Both the position numbers and the translations under genes were made by a program. Below are positions 34,550 through 41,574 of a stretch of DNA of 44,156 nucleotides, in pieces. The notes beneath the pieces are model-generated. The model saw nothing but the letters and a program-made list of their open reading frames with translations, ran no database searches and had not been told where the DNA came from. Numbering within the stretch: the stretch's first letter is position 1; each line of letters opens with the position of its first letter. This stretch comes from Nitrospirae bacterium MYbinv3 (lineage in GTDB: Bacteria; Nitrospirota; Thermodesulfovibrionia; Thermodesulfovibrionales; Magnetobacteriaceae), in assembly GCA_002753395.1 (NCBI GenBank), contig PEAB01000024.1:1-44156 (forward strand), written 5' to 3'.

Positions 34550-36598
34550 TTAGCGCAGAGAGCCACCTGTAATCTCCATAACATGTTTGACGATACTATT
34601 GTGCAGAGTGTCAATTTCCTGCTCAGTGAGAGTTCTACCGATCGCCCTGTATCTAACGTGGAATGCGAGGCTCTTTTTACCCTCTGGTAGATTTGCCCCT
34701 CTGTAATAGTCAAAAATCTCTACTGATTCAATGAGTTTATCAGGATATGCCTGTATCAGTTCGATTATTGATAGAGCTTGGGTGCTGTTATCAACAACCA
34801 ACGATATGTCTCTTTCGATGGCTGGATATTTTGGCAGCGGCGTATACCTTCTTATTTTGGTGTCATCGCTAAAGAGCACATCCACGTACAACTCTAATAC
34901 TGCCACCTCAGAACTGCTCGTCTTGATGTCCATTTTCTTTATAACATCAGGGGATAACATTCCCATAAAGCCGCATTTTTCTTCTAGCCCATCTAACCAT
35001 ATATCCAAGGATAAGTCCTGCATCAAGAATGGCTCCTTAGATGGTCTTAATGTATATTGGGTTATAGACAACTCATCCAATATACTTTGAACCAACCCCT
35101 TTGTCTGAAAAAACAGGTTTGCCGGTTCTCTCCAGAGTCTCTTAACGTCACTGTAGTAGGATAGGGCGGCCAGCTTCAATCTTTCATCAGGGAGATTCTC
35201 TCCTTTGTTGAAAAATACGGTGCCTATCTCATAAATACTTACGTCAGGCATACCATGATTTAAATTGTAAAGAAAATTCTGTATAAGAGACGAAACAATA
35301 GAGGTTCTCAACAGCGATTGATCTGACCTCAGAGGGTTTTTTACAACGATACAGTTAGCCTGTTGGGAGTTGCTTAATATATTCAGGGCATCCTTAGACA
35401 CAAAACTGTAGTTTATAACCTCTGTAAAACCTGCATATCTTAATGCGTTTTTAAGCAGGTCGATATTTTCAACCCTCTTACTCTTCTTTATAACTGCAAA
35501 CTGTGTATCTGGCAATTTAGCCGGTATATTTTCGTAGCCGTATAACCTTGCAACTTCTTCGATGAGGTCAGCATCTATCTCGATATCGCCCCTGTATAGC
35601 GGAGGTGTTACAATGAACCTGCCGTTAGATTTCTTAACATCAAAACAAAGACGTTTAAAGATATCTTCAACATCATCCTGGCCGATATCTATGCCAAGTA
35701 TCCGGCTAAGCTTCTCAGTAGTTAAGGATATCTCACGCGGGATGAATCTCTCTGGATATACATCAATGATCTTAGAAATATCTCCGCCGCATATCTCTTG
35801 AATCAACATTGCAGCCCTGTTGAGGGCAACAGGGACGCTTTCTATATCAACCCCTCTTTCAAACCTATAAGAGGACTCAGAGCTTAGGTTTAACGCCTTT
35901 GAGGTCTTTCTTATAGAGGCATGATTAAAACATGCGCTCTCAAGAAAGATATTCGTTGTTGTTTCAGTGACCTCGGTGTGTAGACCCCCCATAACGCCGG
36001 CAACGGCAATTGGGCCTTTCTTATCACATATCATAAGTGTGCCGCGGGATATGGCTCTTTCAACCCCATCTAACGTTATAATTTTGACGTCTCTTGACAG
36101 TGCCCTTGCACTAATACATTTACCGCTTATTGTGGACAGGTCAAAGGCGTGCAGCGGCTGCCCTCTTTCTAACATGACGTAATTGGTGATATCTACCACG
36201 TTATTGATCGAGCGCACCCCTGAGCGTCGTAGTCTATCCTTAAGCCACTGAGGTGATTCAGATACCTGTACTCCGGTTATAACCCTTCCCGTGTAACGAT
36301 AACACAACTGTGGTGACTGAATTTCAACTGCTACATTAAGGGCACGTTCATCCTGTATGTTATACGGGACATGTCCCTTTAATGGCACTTTTGTTATCGC
36401 GGCAAGCTCTCGTGCAATACCAGCGACACTTAAGCAGTCAGACCTGTTGGGTGTTATGTTTAAATCAAATACAACCGTCTGTTCAATATCCTCTATTGAC
36501 TCGACCTCGCATCCAGACATTGTAAGCATATCTGCAATCTTTGCCGGTTTGTCATTCAGATCGATAAAATCAGACAGCCATTCTAAAGAAAGAAGCAT
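34550..36598 (-). CDS. pheT: Phenylalanine-tRNA ligase beta subunit, short form without tRNA-binding domain
   Basis: Beta chain of the alpha2-beta2 enzyme. 682 residues against about 790-800 for the common form. MLLSLEWLSDFIDLNDKP and MLTMSGCEVESIEDIEQ are followed at once by DLNITPNRSDCLSVAGIARE, so the EMAP/OB-fold tRNA-binding domain normally between them is missing. The B3/B4 editing domain (RRSGVRSINNVVDITNYVML, GQPLHAFDL), B5 and the catalytic-like core (DADLIEEVARLYGYENIPAK) follow. The C-terminal ferredoxin-fold anticodon-binding domain (YPAIERDISLVVD, IGRTLTEQEID) is intact. It follows pheS with 36 bases between. Confidence 0.95.
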   Translation of the reverse strand: MLLSLEWLSDFIDLNDKPAKIADMLTMSGCEVESIEDIEQTVVFDLNITPNRSDCLSVAGIARELAAITKVPLKGHVPYNIQDERALNVAVEIQSPQLCYRYTGRVITGVQVSESPQWLKDRLRRSGVRSINNVVDITNYVMLERGQPLHAFDLSTISGKCISARALSRDVKIITLDGVERAISRGTLMICDKKGPIAVAGVMGGLHTEVTETTTNIFLESACFNHASIRKTSKALNLSSESSYRFERGVDIESVPVALNRAAMLIQEICGGDISKIIDVYPERFIPREISLTTEKLSRILGIDIGQDDVEDIFKRLCFDVKKSNGRFIVTPPLYRGDIEIDADLIEEVARLYGYENIPAKLPDTQFAVIKKSKRVENIDLLKNALRYAGFTEVINYSFVSKDALNILSNSQQANCIVVKNPLRSDQSLLRTSIVSSLIQNFLYNLNHGMPDVSIYEIGTVFFNKGENLPDERLKLAALSYYSDVKRLWREPANLFFQTKGLVQSILDELSITQYTLRPSKEPFLMQDLSLDIWLDGLEEKCGFMGMLSPDVIKKMDIKTSSSEVAVLELYVDVLFSDDTKIRRYTPLPKYPAIERDISLVVDNSTQALSIIELIQAYPDKLIESVEIFDYYRGANLPEGKKSLAFHVRYRAIGRTLTEQEIDTLHNSIVKHVMEITGGSLR

Positions 36599-36634
36599 AT
36601 AGTTATCCTTGAAACCAATATAGTCGTAGTTAAT

Positions 36635-37684
36635 CTAAAACTGCTGCAAAAACCTGAGGTCTCCTTCATAAAAGAGCCTTATGTCGTCAATTCCATACTT
36701 TAACATGGTTATCCGTTCTATTCCCATACCAAAGGCGAAACCGCAATACAGTTCAGGGTCGTAGCCAACCATCTGAAATACCTTTGGGTTGACCATACCC
36801 GCTCCTAATATCTCAATCCATCCGGTACCCTTGCATATACGACATCCTGTCTGTTTACAGAAGAAGCAGCCAATGTCGCCCTCTGTAGAGGGTTCGGTGA
36901 ATGGGAAGAAACTTGGTCTGAACCTCACCGGTAGTGTGGCTCCAAAGACAAGATGTAAAAAGCCTTCTAATACGGCCTTCAGGTTCGCAAAGGATATGTC
37001 CGTATCGACCATCAGACCTTCCACCTGGTGAAACAGTGGTGTATGGGTAATGTCAGAGTCGCGGCGGTATACCTTACCTGGGGCAATGAACCTTAGCGGG
37101 GGCGCGCTGCGCTTCATTACGCGTATCTGAACGGCTGAGGTATGTGTCCTTAGCAGCACGTCGCTGTCTACAGCGCTGGCATTCTGTGTAAGACCGCCCG
37201 TATCAACGTAAAATGTATCTTGCATATCCCTGGCTGGGTGATTCTTAGGCATGTTCAACGCCTCGAAGTTATAGTAATCGGTCTCTACCTCTGGACCTTC
37301 TTCGATGGCAAACCCCATTGAAGCGAATATATCGACGATCTCCTTCATAACGATGCTTACCGGGTGCCTGCCGCCTGCCTTTTTGTAATACCCTGGCAAC
37401 GTTAGATCTATTTTGTTGGAGGCAATTTTATTGCTGATCTCTATCCTTTTTAAAACGTCTTCTTTTTCCTTCAGCGTTGCGGCAATGAAGTTCTTGTCCT
37501 CGTTTATCGCCTTTCCGGCAGCGCCGCGCTCGTTAGGAGGCAGCTCCGTAAGGGTTTTAAGAGCGGATGTGACAGAGCCGCTCTTGCCAATATATTTTGC
37601 TCTAAGAGTGCTTAACTCTGTGGTGTTCTTAATAAGATCTAATTCCTCTAAGAAGCGGGCCTGAAGTGATGTATAACTCTTCAC
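36635..37684 (-). CDS. pheS: Phenylalanine-tRNA ligase alpha subunit
   Basis: Catalytic subunit charging tRNA-Phe. 349 residues: N-terminal coiled coil (LTELPPNERGAAGKAIN), then class II motifs: HPVSIVMKEIVDIFASMGF, motif 2 GKVYRRDSDITHTPLFHQVE and motif 3 GFAFGMGIERITMLKYG. The Cys pairs GCFFCKQTGCRICKGTGW and the conserved EILGAGMV follow motif 2. Start ATG 37684 is 8 bases after the rplT stop, so the two are coupled. Completes the thrS-infC-rpmI-rplT-pheS-pheT order. Confidence 0.97.
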   Translation of the reverse strand: MKSYTSLQARFLEELDLIKNTTELSTLRAKYIGKSGSVTSALKTLTELPPNERGAAGKAINEDKNFIAATLKEKEDVLKRIEISNKIASNKIDLTLPGYYKKAGGRHPVSIVMKEIVDIFASMGFAIEEGPEVETDYYNFEALNMPKNHPARDMQDTFYVDTGGLTQNASAVDSDVLLRTHTSAVQIRVMKRSAPPLRFIAPGKVYRRDSDITHTPLFHQVEGLMVDTDISFANLKAVLEGFLHLVFGATLPVRFRPSFFPFTEPSTEGDIGCFFCKQTGCRICKGTGWIEILGAGMVNPKVFQMVGYDPELYCGFAFGMGIERITMLKYGIDDIRLFYEGDLRFLQQF

Positions 37685-37692
37685 GGGCTAAG

Positions 37693-38043
37693 CTATGCGT
37701 TCTTGACTGTATTTGCTATCTCATTAAAAGCCGTCAGGTTGCTAAAGGCAAGATCGGCCAGAGCGCGTCTGTCAAGCAGGATGTTGGCCTTTTTTAAACC
37801 ACCTATGAATTGGCTGTAGGTCATACCAATAGCCCTGAGGGCGGCATTTATCCTGATTATCCACAGTCTTCTGAATTCACGTTTTTTTCTTTTTCTATCG
37901 TTATAGGCATGGACCAGTGCGTGGTCTACCGCCTCGGCTGCTACCCTATAGAGCTTACTTTTACCACCATAGTAGCCGCTTGCCTTTTGCAGCGTTTTTT
38001 TCCTTCTACGTCTTGTCTTAAACCCACCTTTTGCTCTGGGCAT
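37693..38043 (-). CDS. rplT: 50S ribosomal protein L20
   Basis: 116 residues, very basic: [57 protein letters not shown] and a C-terminal domain [14 protein letters not shown]. An early 23S assembly protein which in enterobacteria and Bacillus also represses its own operon by binding the leader mRNA. AGGAGGAAC precedes ATG 38043. The 155-base gap from rpmI, longer than usual, could hold such a control site; see that entry. Confidence 0.98.
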
Positions 38044-38198
38044 TTATAGTTCCTCCTAATCCTTGATTCTTTGTATCCTTGTTATATCTAACATCAATTG
38101 CTCATTTGTAACCAGATTGGAATTACTCATCCGTAATAAACCACTTGGCATGTAGCAACTGGCATTTACCGATTTCTCTTTCTGCTTACGCAGTGGTT
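38044..38198 (-). promoter_or_regulatory. rpmI-rplT spacer with small hairpins, possible L20 control region
   Basis: 155 bases with no gene. On the minus strand CTGCGTAAGCAG is self-complementary and ATTACGGATGAGTAAT forms a short stem. L20 autocontrol is known at this place in other bacteria; I cannot show the fold here. Confidence 0.3.
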
Positions 38199-38396
38199 CT
38201 AAAGATAAGGCAACATTGTTTTTACGCTTCTCTCGTTTGCTATATCAACAATGGCTGCTGTCCTTAAGTGGCGTGTCCTTTTTGAGGCCTTACCGGTTAA
38301 CAGGTGACTCTTATAAGCCTTGTTTCTTTTGAACTTACCTGAGCCTGTCTTTTTAAACCTTTTTTCAGCCCCTCTATGGGTCTTTAATTTTGGCAC
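38199..38396 (-). CDS. rpmI: 50S ribosomal protein L35
   Basis: 65 residues, standard length: [40 protein letters not shown] and [27 protein letters not shown] lies before the ATG. 100 bases separate it from the infC stop. The protein is one of the few in this row that cannot be mistaken despite its size. Confidence 0.97.
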
Positions 38397-38496
38397 TATA
38401 TCCTCCTAACACATCATGAAACTATCTTTTGTTTTACGCACATGGTAGTTTAAACCAAACACTCGATTCATAGCAAGGCAATCATTAACTTTAACA

Positions 38497-38991
38497 TTAC
38501 TTAGGCGCTACGACCATGATCATGCAATTACCGTCGAGTTTGGGTTTAACCTCTATGCTGTAATTGCCTTCGAGTTTTTCGATTATCTTATCAAAGACCA
38601 CCATTCCCTGTTCGGGTCTGACTATCTCTCGGCCGCGGAAGAACATAGAGACCTTTGCCTTATCACCGTCAGTCAGGAAGGTAATCATCTGGTTAATCTT
38701 TCTCTCCAGGTCATGTTCTGATATCCTTGGTCGTATCTTTACCTCTTTTACGTCAATGGTCTTTCTGTGAGTGTGCTTCTTACTTAATTGATACTTATAC
38801 TTACCGAAGTCCATAATCCGGCACACTGGTGGGTTAGCCGCCGGGGCAACTTCCACAAGGTCAAGTCCCCTATCTATGGCCGATTTTATGGCATCCTTGA
38901 TGTTTACAATACCGAGCTGTCCGCCCTCTACATCGATCAATCTGACTTGAGGCACCTTTATCTGCTCGTTTATTCTGATTTTTTTATTTAT
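38497..38991 (-). CDS. infC: Translation initiation factor IF-3, starting at ATA
   Basis: IF-3 binds the 30S subunit, keeps subunits apart and rejects non-standard start codons. From an ATA at 38991 the protein is 164 residues: NKKIRINEQIKVPQVRLIDV, GGQLGIVNIKDAIKSAIDRG, CRIMDFGKYKYQLSKKHTHR and VKEVKIRPRISEHDLERKIN. AAGGAGGG ends 6 bases before the ATA, and RINEQIKVPQVRLID is the normal IF-3 beginning, so the first in-frame GTG (38955) would cut off conserved residues with no ribosome site. Rare infC starts (AUU, AUC, AUA) allow IF-3 to repress its own synthesis. It follows thrS by 18 bases. Confidence 0.93.
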   Translation of the reverse strand: MNKKIRINEQIKVPQVRLIDVEGGQLGIVNIKDAIKSAIDRGLDLVEVAPAANPPVCRIMDFGKYKYQLSKKHTHRKTIDVKEVKIRPRISEHDLERKINQMITFLTDGDKAKVSMFFRGREIVRPEQGMVVFDKIIEKLEGNYSIEVKPKLDGNCMIMVVAPK

Positions 38992-39009
38992 AACTTGCCC
39001 TCCTTATTA

Positions 39010-40911
39010 TTATGTTTTATTATTGATCTCTTGCTTTAAGAAATCAAGCAATTCTTCCCTGCTGTTATAGACGATATTTCCACCGCTCCGTTTTCTGACC
39101 GTTAGAGTAGCTGTTTGAGCCTCTTTATCACCAATGAGGACTGTATAAGGCACCTTCCTCATTGAGGCATGTCTTATCTTGTAGCCGATCTTCTCATTGC
39201 CGAAGTCTCCCTCGACCCTTATGCCGTTCTTCTTAAATAAATCCACTAGCTCCTGTGCAAAGGCAATGTGTCTATCCGACACGGTCAGAATAGACAGCTG
39301 CAGTGGTGAAAGCCATAACGGAAAGACACCGCCGTAGTGTTCAATCAACACACCGAAGAACCGCTCTAAAGAGCCCATCAACGCCCTGTGGATCATAATG
39401 GGCATGTGCTCCTTGTCATCTGCACCGCGATAGGTTATATCGAAACGCTCAGGGTTGTTGAAATCCACCTGTATGGTGCTGCACTGCCACTGCCGCTTTA
39501 AGGAGTCTTTCACCTTAATATCTATCTTTGGACCGTAGAAGACACCTTCGCCTGGGTCAACTTCATACTTTAGTTCTTTTGTTGTTAATGCCTTTGTTAA
39601 TGCGTTTGTGGATATCTCCCAGTTATCCAGACTTCCTACATACTTCTCAGGCCTTGTCGAGAGGTAGATATCGTACTGTTCAAACCCGAACGTCTTTAAC
39701 ACAAACAACGTGAAGTCAAGCACATTAAGTATCTCATCCTCTATCTGGTCAATGCGGCAGAAGATGTGTGCATCATCCTGAGTGAACCCCCTTACGCGCA
39801 TAAGCCCGTGAAGCACGCCGGAACGTTCGTATCTGTATACAGTGCCTAACTCGGCATATCTGATAGGGAACTCCCTATAACTTCTAAGAGAGCTGTTATA
39901 GATGGCTACGTGGAAGGGGCAGTTCATTGGTTTGAGTTCATAGTCGGCCCCTTCGATCTCCATTGGAGCATACATGTTTTCCTTGTAAAAGTCGAGGTGT
40001 CCGCTGCGCTGCCAGAGGTTTAGCTTAGCTATATGCGGGGTGTAGAGTAAGCTGTAGTTGGCCTTTATATGTTCATCACGCCAGAAATCCTCGATAGTCT
40101 TTCTGATTATTGCTCCGTTGGGGTGCCATAGGATCAGCCCTGCTCCGATCTCATCGTTTATGCTAAAGAGGTCAAGTTCCTTACCGATTTTACGGTGATC
40201 CCGCTTCTTTACCTCTTCAAGGAAGTTTAGATAGTCCTTGAGCTGGGTCTCGTTAGCAAAGGCAGTACCGTAGATCCTCTGGAGCATCTTGTTTTTTTCG
40301 CTGCCCCGCCAGTAAGCCCCTGCCGTCTTTAATAACTTAAAGGCATTGATTCTGCCGGTTGATGGTACGTGCGGTCCTCGGCATAGATCAACAAACTCGC
40401 CTTCCTCGTAGAGGCTTACGACATCGTCCTCGATCTCCTCGATGATCTCTACCTTGTAGGTCTCGCCCATGTCCTTAAAGAGTTGTATAGCATCTGCTTT
40501 AGATACAACTTTTCGGACAAAGGGGTTATTCTTTTTAATTATCTGGATCATCTTTTTTTCGATCTTGACGAGGTCATCCGGTGTAAACGGGGTTTCCTGG
40601 TCAAAATCGTAGTAAAAGCCTTCCTCTGTTGCAGGCCCTATAGTGACCTTTGCATCAGGGAAGAGCTCCTTAACAGCATGTGCCATTATGTGTGACGTGC
40701 TGTGCCGATAGATACCTAACCCCTCCGGTGATTCCACTGTTACCGGCTCTATCGTCTGTTGACCCTGACCTAACGTATCTGACGTCTCTTGCGACTTTGT
40801 TTCTAAGGCGCTTATATCAACATATCTATCGCCTACTTTTGCTGCGATAGCCTTTGCTTGTTTAAGTCTCTTTAAAATATCTTCTTGTCCCTGCTCCGTT
40901 TGTTGCCCCAA
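39010..40911 (-). CDS. thrS: Threonine-tRNA ligase
   Basis: 633 residues. Class II core and editing domain: IYRHSTSHIMAHAVKELFP (editing His pair), FVDLCRGPHVPSTGRINAFK, zinc Cys in KPMNCPFHVAIYNSSLR, motif 2 RYERSGVLHGLMRVRGFTQD, motif 3 MIHRALMGSLERFFGVLIEH, and an anticodon-binding end. The N-terminal TGS domain is odd: the usual ITLPDGS strand is absent, and only the second half (LKQAKAIAAKVGDRYVDIS) is recognisable after MGQQTEQGQED. The start is TTG 40911; upstream in frame there is only ATT before a stop, so no longer form is likely. GGGGG lies about 12 bases before. The first gene of the translation row. Confidence 0.96.
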   Translation of the reverse strand: MGQQTEQGQEDILKRLKQAKAIAAKVGDRYVDISALETKSQETSDTLGQGQQTIEPVTVESPEGLGIYRHSTSHIMAHAVKELFPDAKVTIGPATEEGFYYDFDQETPFTPDDLVKIEKKMIQIIKKNNPFVRKVVSKADAIQLFKDMGETYKVEIIEEIEDDVVSLYEEGEFVDLCRGPHVPSTGRINAFKLLKTAGAYWRGSEKNKMLQRIYGTAFANETQLKDYLNFLEEVKKRDHRKIGKELDLFSINDEIGAGLILWHPNGAIIRKTIEDFWRDEHIKANYSLLYTPHIAKLNLWQRSGHLDFYKENMYAPMEIEGADYELKPMNCPFHVAIYNSSLRSYREFPIRYAELGTVYRYERSGVLHGLMRVRGFTQDDAHIFCRIDQIEDEILNVLDFTLFVLKTFGFEQYDIYLSTRPEKYVGSLDNWEISTNALTKALTTKELKYEVDPGEGVFYGPKIDIKVKDSLKRQWQCSTIQVDFNNPERFDITYRGADDKEHMPIMIHRALMGSLERFFGVLIEHYGGVFPLWLSPLQLSILTVSDRHIAFAQELVDLFKKNGIRVEGDFGNEKIGYKIRHASMRKVPYTVLIGDKEAQTATLTVRKRSGGNIVYNSREELLDFLKQEINNKT

Positions 40912-41131
40912 TAGAGTGTAACCCCCTTTAGCTACAATTTATTTAACCATATCAATTTAATAATATCATAAATTCAATAATTTTTGTTGAACCATTAAAC
41001 TAAGTTCAATTAAAATCCGCATTTCTTTATCCCCTCTATCTGCTGCATCATCATTTATGATTAACGTTGCTAAGGTGTATATACAGCACGTAAATGCAGA
41101 CACTTATAAATTATTTGGTATATAGTCATAA
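40912..41131. other. thrS upstream region, no gene seen
   Basis: AT-rich, no open frame of note. I looked for a T-box (specifier stem plus TGGNACCGCG) on the minus strand and found none. Confidence 0.5.
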
Positions 41132-41246
41132 CCCTACAACGTCACTTCCAGTCTAAACGGTTGATTTCTGCGGTAACTTCAAATAACACCAAAGCATGTA
41201 AACCGTTTATTTTGCCATGTTCTATTTCTAAACTGTCGTTGTAGGG
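41132..41246. repeat. Small element with TIR CCCTACAACG
   Basis: CCCTACAACGTCACTTCCAG at the left; the right end in reverse complement is CCCTACAACGACAGTTTAGA. The first 10 bases are identical. ATAA on both sides (41128-41131, 41247-41250) could be a short target duplication. 115 bases, non-coding. Confidence 0.5.
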
Positions 41247-41289
41247 ATAATATTGAATATATAAGGCGAGAGACAAACTATCAGCTCAT

Positions 41290-41426
41290 CAGCAATCCTC
41301 ACTGAGAATGAATGTAACTTATTGATATATAAGCAATATACTATAAAAACACCGCGAAAAACATTTTTCATATACACAATAAAATCCTTATAAAAAGCCA
41401 TTCTGCAAATTCAGTGAGAATTGCTG
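41290..41426. repeat. MITE-like element with TIR CAGCAATYCTCACTGA and 9-base TSD TCAGCTCAT
   Basis: Left end CAGCAATCCTCACTGAGAAT; the right end in reverse complement from 41426 is CAGCAATTCTCACTGAATTT. Flanking direct repeats TCAGCTCAT are perfect (41281-41289, 41427-41435). 137 bases, AT-rich, no open frame. The termini match the IS end at 329-347. Confidence 0.85.
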
Positions 41427-41464
41427 TCAGCTCATTATACCTATTGATATTAGATGAACCTTAT

Positions 41465-41574
41465 GTATTAAGAAGGGAGGGCTTAGCCTCTGCCGCAGGG
41501 GTTCGCAACCCCCTCCCTAAGACCTACCCACAAGGGACCAGTCCCCTTAACCCTATTATATCGCATATTCATAC
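41465..41574. repeat. Palindrome-rich element related to 4978-5084
   Basis: Begins GTATTAAGAAGGGAGGGC and ends TTATATCGCATATTCATAC, with CAGGGGTTCGCAACCCCCTC and GGGACCAGTCCCCTTAACCC inside, parallel to the element at 4978-5084. No target duplication visible, so probably old. Confidence 0.5.

Follow-up and report, generated by a model that had tools for sequence, protein, structure and literature searches.

An ATA start codon for infC shared across an order of Nitrospirota, and its probable role in feedback by IF3

Results

The infC gene in the window, meaning the whole 44,156-base stretch of DNA analyzed here, is very probably translated from an ATA codon at position 38991 chosen by its Shine-Dalgarno (SD) sequence, under negative feedback by its own product, translation initiation factor IF3, of the type known from E. 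coli. Initiation at ATA 38991 rather than at GTG 38955 is strongly supported by the position of the SD sequence and by comparison with related genomes, and IF3 autoregulation of infC in this lineage is likely, being the natural reading by analogy and one that fits the conservation. The features concerned, all on the minus strand, are as follows.

38497..38991, minus strand: infC, translation initiation factor IF3, 164 residues (reading frame, Pfam IF3_N and IF3_C)
38499-38497, minus strand: stop codon of infC (reading frame)
38989..38991, minus strand: predicted ATA start codon of infC (SD spacing and conservation in 57/62 order genomes)
38998..39005, minus strand: SD sequence AAGGAGGG, 6 nt before the ATA, overlapping the in-frame TAA stop at 39006-39004
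38953..38955, minus strand: GTG, codon 13, the first canonical start in the infC frame, rejected as the start
39010..40911, minus strand: thrS (threonyl-tRNA synthetase), upstream neighbor of infC, with a TTG start
38199..38396, minus strand: rpmI (L35), with a GTG start and AGGAGGA
37693..38043, minus strand: rplT (L20), with an ATG start
36635-37684, minus strand: pheS, opening with GTG

Start codon and Shine-Dalgarno sequence of infC

After the in-frame TAA stop, the minus strand reads GGA GGG CAA GTT ATA AAT AAA AAA and continues with ATC AGA ATA AAC GAG CAG ATA AAG to GTG 38955; read directly, the sequence between the stop and this GTG contains no ATG, GTG, or TTG. The conserved IF3 N-terminus is encodable only with a start upstream of GTG 38955, and no ATG, GTG, or TTG is able to give it. 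The infC product matches Pfam IF3_N (E 4.6e-30; 104 bits against a cut-off of 26.9) and IF3_C (E 3e-29; 101.2 bits against a cut-off of 34.8), both above the gathering score, and the IF3_N match opens at profile position 1, corresponding to residue 11 of the translation from 39003 and lying six residues ahead of GTG 38955. It is the single IF3 match in the source genome (a draft assembly of 175 contigs), has 76 positions identical to E. coli IF3 in one pairwise alignment, and shares 90% identity with the IF3 of its closest named relative, Candidatus Magnetobacterium casense MYR-1. A preliminary description of this DNA had derived the upstream start from the conserved N-terminus and the lack of ATG, GTG, and TTG, had placed an SD sequence 6 bases ahead of ATA 38991, and had stated that a GTG start would lose 12 residues; the sequence bears out each of these points, including coordinates and spacing, with GTG 38955 as codon 13.

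The motif AAGGAGG occurs 17 times in the window, counting both strands, and is followed 5-9 nt downstream by an ATH codon in any frame at four places, one of which is the minus-strand site at 39005. Judged by this count, together with the presence of ATA at SD distance in 57/62 order genomes, the arrangement at infC appears to be more than chance. An exact-pattern search of this 96.6%-complete assembly gave no match to the 16S rRNA 3′ end that carries the anti-SD sequence, and SD pairing at infC is therefore assumed; the 16S rRNA 3′ end of the source genome may be missing or may differ. No known RNA elements were detected in the whole window at gathering scores, and at E <= 5 over 36500-41500 the only match was to a plant-virus IRES at chance level (23.1 bits vs 50). 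An mRNA structure hiding the SD sequence at infC was also considered and rejected, the folding z-score of -0.33 being nothing notable.

Gene cluster around infC

The gene lies in a cluster with the order thrS-infC-rpmI-rplT-pheS-pheT, the same as in the E. coli K-12 record, which also includes pheM; pheT in the window was named by its reading frame and homologues, not by Pfam. A scan for conservation upstream of the first canonical start flagged many frames in the window, mostly shadows of real genes, as well as the cluster genes thrS, pheT, and rpmI. Non-canonical starts were rejected for these three genes, which have canonical codons at the homologous place in genus relatives (TTG for thrS, ATG for pheT, and GTG or TTG with an SD sequence for rpmI), leaving infC as the sole cluster gene without one. 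The TTG start of thrS is kept in all four genus sequences compared. In a control search of 36 order loci that took canonical codons only, ATG, GTG, or TTG with an SD sequence was present at the homologous position in 27/27 matches for rpmI, as was ATG with an SD sequence in 23/23 matches for rplT (with an SD match of 3 nt only in one rplT), while 9 and 13 of the 36 loci, respectively, gave no match. The cluster is in general rich in weak canonical starts in this genus, namely TTG for thrS, GTG for rpmI (TTG in one of four genus members), and GTG for pheS.

Start codons of infC within the order

Start codons at SD spacing were compared in 62 genomes of the order, comprising 56 infC-bearing members of a set of 60 (source genome, genus, family, and order; an infC match was absent in 4/60) and six order genomes added from a further set of 118, of which 3 had no infC match. 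The SD-placed codon is ATA in 57 genomes, ATC in three (loci L021, L030, and L113), ATG in one (L015 in genome G008, of the same family), and TTG in one (L025 in G022), such that an ATH codon at SD spacing is kept in 60/62. Most order infC genes match the SD consensus over 7-8 nt, with an aligned spacing of 7. By this comparison, ATA is the normal infC start of the order, which upholds the start at ATA 38991 in the preliminary description, where comparison with related genomes had been proposed as a check. At L015 and L025 the N-termini before the conserved motif are longer, and these two genomes seem to have abandoned the non-canonical start.

Codon-level analyses used an alignment of 59 rows, which leaves out L113, L115, and L132 as identical to named loci; the 62-genome count restores them. 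In the 59-row set, 54 starts were picked as ATA. Locus L129, with ATC and ATA in tandem, is ATC among these picks and ATA in the 62-genome count, whose rule prefers SD spacing. Codon 1 of the alignment shows only 40 ATA, as unequal N-termini misalign there, and all start counts come from the SD-based picks. The order count leaves out a second, divergent IF3 gene of one genome (L137, G021:C49:8916-9707), which has 48% identity to the query and an SD-like GGAGGA followed by ATA ATT.

These data bear on two other readings of the infC start. Translation could begin at GTG 38955, the first canonical start codon in the infC frame, in which case the conservation upstream would be untranslated or incidental. 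However, no SD sequence is visible ahead of this codon, the IF3_N profile begins upstream of it, and its column holds GTG in just 6/59 order rows, with Ala in 36, Val in 16, Ser in 5, and Arg in 2. Further upstream, codons are conserved as protein: all 59 rows have Asn at codon 8 and Ile at codon 11, with third bases that vary. The synonymous share of changes over all pairs is 0.49 for codons 5-12 vs 0.51 for the rest of infC, so this segment appears to behave like ordinary coding sequence and no more, an equality that weakens the argument from upstream conservation. With all this considered, a start at GTG 38955 is very improbable. Still less credible, to the point of being negligible, is the possibility that an ATG was turned into ATA by faulty sequencing or assembly: although the source is a draft of 175 contigs, finding ATA at the same place in 57/62 genomes contradicts an error.

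Start codons of infC elsewhere in the phylum

Beyond the order, 89 infC places in 88 other genomes of the phylum gave ATC in 52, ATT in 20, ATA in 12, and no call in 5, and at none of these 89 places did a canonical infC start pass the SD-based call. The third base of the start largely follows the family: ATC occupies 22/22 places in family f22, and ATA occupies 12/12 places, as sampled, in families f16 (5), f17 (6), and f20 (1). Families f23 (ATT 16, ATC 5) and f18 (ATC 9, ATT 4) are mixed, and many f23 places have an SD match of only 4 nt. The uncalled places are L188, L191, L243, L244, and L249, the last of which reads N at the start. Two of them (L188 and L191, from two genomes of family f25) have no SD-supported start and carry an ATG nine codons upstream of the conserved motif; these f25 genomes may have switched to ATG.

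Among 78 distinct loci (of 80) in a named collection, the picked start is ATC at 38, ATA at 19, ATT at 14, GTG at 3, CTG at 2, and none at 2; these picks are automatic and unrefined, with miscalls among them. On such unrefined picks, canonical infC starts appear to exist elsewhere, as GTG at the three loci.

Conservation of the start codon beyond codon usage

The predominance of ATA exceeds what codon usage predicts: with starts drawn according to the Ile codons of each gene itself, 25.3 of the 59 rows would be expected to start with ATA, against the 54 picked, and at conserved internal Ile columns of the same rows ATA reaches at most 33/59. On a phylum IF3 tree of 144 rows with ATH starts, which leaves out the uncalled places, the start codon changes 10 times, in comparison to 40 and 36 changes for the internal Ile residues 11 and 19. 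Within the order alone, the start changes 3 times (5 with the canonical ones included) vs 16-20 times for four internal Ile columns. These trees were made quickly from the IF3 sequences and are not species trees. Taken as such, they show slow evolution of the third base at the infC start, with several times fewer changes than at ordinary Ile codons.

The third-position GC of infC among ATA starters ranges from 0.15 to 0.86, and the ATT-start group is GC-rich, with a mean of 0.73. Neither base composition nor Ile codon usage was accepted as sufficient by itself to explain ATA. The mean internal ATA fraction, however, is 0.46 in ATA starters, compared with 0.10 in ATC starters and 0.04 in ATT starters; since ATA starters use more internal ATA, the start codon is linked to codon usage across the groups, and the codon usage of a lineage may play a part in which ATH codon serves as the start.

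The family-linked third base and its slow change invite the idea that the choice of AUA, AUC, or AUU is under selection as a set-point of the IF3 feedback loop particular to each lineage. If so, lineages would differ in how strongly IF3 and the ribosome discriminate against each codon, the start codon would be locked to that strength, and replacing AUA with AUC or AUU would bring IF3 to the wrong level. This proposal is tentative and rather doubtful, being judged a little less probable because of the higher internal ATA usage of ATA starters.

Regulation of infC by IF3 and comparison with known systems

A non-AUG start of infC combined with feedback by IF3 is textbook knowledge, and IF3 feedback on E. 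coli infC is said to go back to work by Butler (1986/1987) and Sacerdot (1996). Such feedback is also reported for E. coli infC in PMC5472188. The infC of the window is the same gene as in E. coli, in the same cluster order that was taken here as a mark of the E. coli-type infC, and it also starts with an ATH codon, although this is ATT in E. coli and ATA in the window. In the proposed mechanism, ATA 38991 would be selected by its near-perfect SD sequence at good spacing, and the imperfect pairing of ATA with the anticodon of the initiator tRNA would let IF3 destabilize the initiation complexes formed there. Scarcity of IF3 would then raise the translation of infC and abundance of IF3 would lower it, giving negative feedback of the E. 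coli type. The loop would be built on AUA in this order, whereas the phylum's other families would mostly use AUC or AUU. The ability of the window IF3 to discriminate in this way is assumed from its family membership. A strong SD sequence joined to a disfavored start codon is the expected design for a feedback loop, and this combination is conserved here. The device would nonetheless be dispensable, given ATG in G008 and TTG in G022 within the order and GTG calls at 3/78 named loci.

An alternative without IF3 feedback is that the non-AUG start sets a low, fixed level of translation for which the strong SD sequence compensates. Reporter data show that such codons can lower expression: non-canonical starts in S. 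aureus gave about 10% of the AUG level, in reporters of three sites in poor medium (PMC13009471), and start-codon reporters of Listeria rsbW ranked ATG > ATA > ATT (PMC13068326). A start that was merely weak, however, could as well be GTG or TTG, or carry a weak SD sequence, whereas the non-canonical infC start persists in 60/62 order genomes and at 84/89 other places in the phylum (5 uncalled), alongside canonical starts for rpmI and rplT of the same cluster. A fixed level is thus an improbable explanation, and IF3 feedback from ATA 38991 is the preferred one.

The closest parallel to this preferred mechanism is S. aureus infC, the same gene in a distant phylum, which has the same AUA codon and an extended SD sequence. 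Its AUA start was mapped by ribosome profiling with retapamulin, whereas the ATA start in the window is predicted from sequence comparison, and the authors of that report propose autoregulation (PMC13009471). The preliminary description had called ATA the rarer codon, which is incorrect for this lineage in view of its presence in 57/62 order genomes and at 12/12 places in f16, f17, and f20; AUA is also the start reported for S. aureus infC (PMC13009471). The infC genes of Listeria monocytogenes (PMC13068326) and Bacillus subtilis (PMC6097659, PMC1805508) likewise have non-canonical starts, but these are reported as ATT in contrast to ATA here. Streptomyces infC starts with ATC, and expression from the GTC-started sigR is reported to change when infC is present in extra copies or carries fidelity mutations; the codons therefore differ from that in the window, and the IF3 target shown in that source is sigR and not infC itself (PMC5472188).

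Within this framework, the infC of the window has a real and well-supported non-canonical start that is ordinary for its lineage, and what it represents would be a lineage-wide version of a well-known self-regulation device, not a new device. A search of the open-access literature by title found neither a survey of infC starts nor a title concerned with Nitrospirota, which is weak evidence of absence; an arXiv paper on bacterial genes preferring non-AUG starts reportedly exists and may cover such a survey. The comparison adds a little-cultivated part of Nitrospirota to the lineages with a non-AUG infC start, and it shows that within this one phylum the prevailing codon is AUA, AUC, or AUU depending on the family, with AUC and AUU mixed in two of the families sampled. 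These family differences offer natural material for asking how finely IF3 discriminates among near-cognate codons. For genome annotation, a gene caller restricted to ATG, GTG, and TTG would set the start of infC at the wrong codon in most of the genomes sampled, as is reported to happen already in most Streptomyces (PMC5472188).
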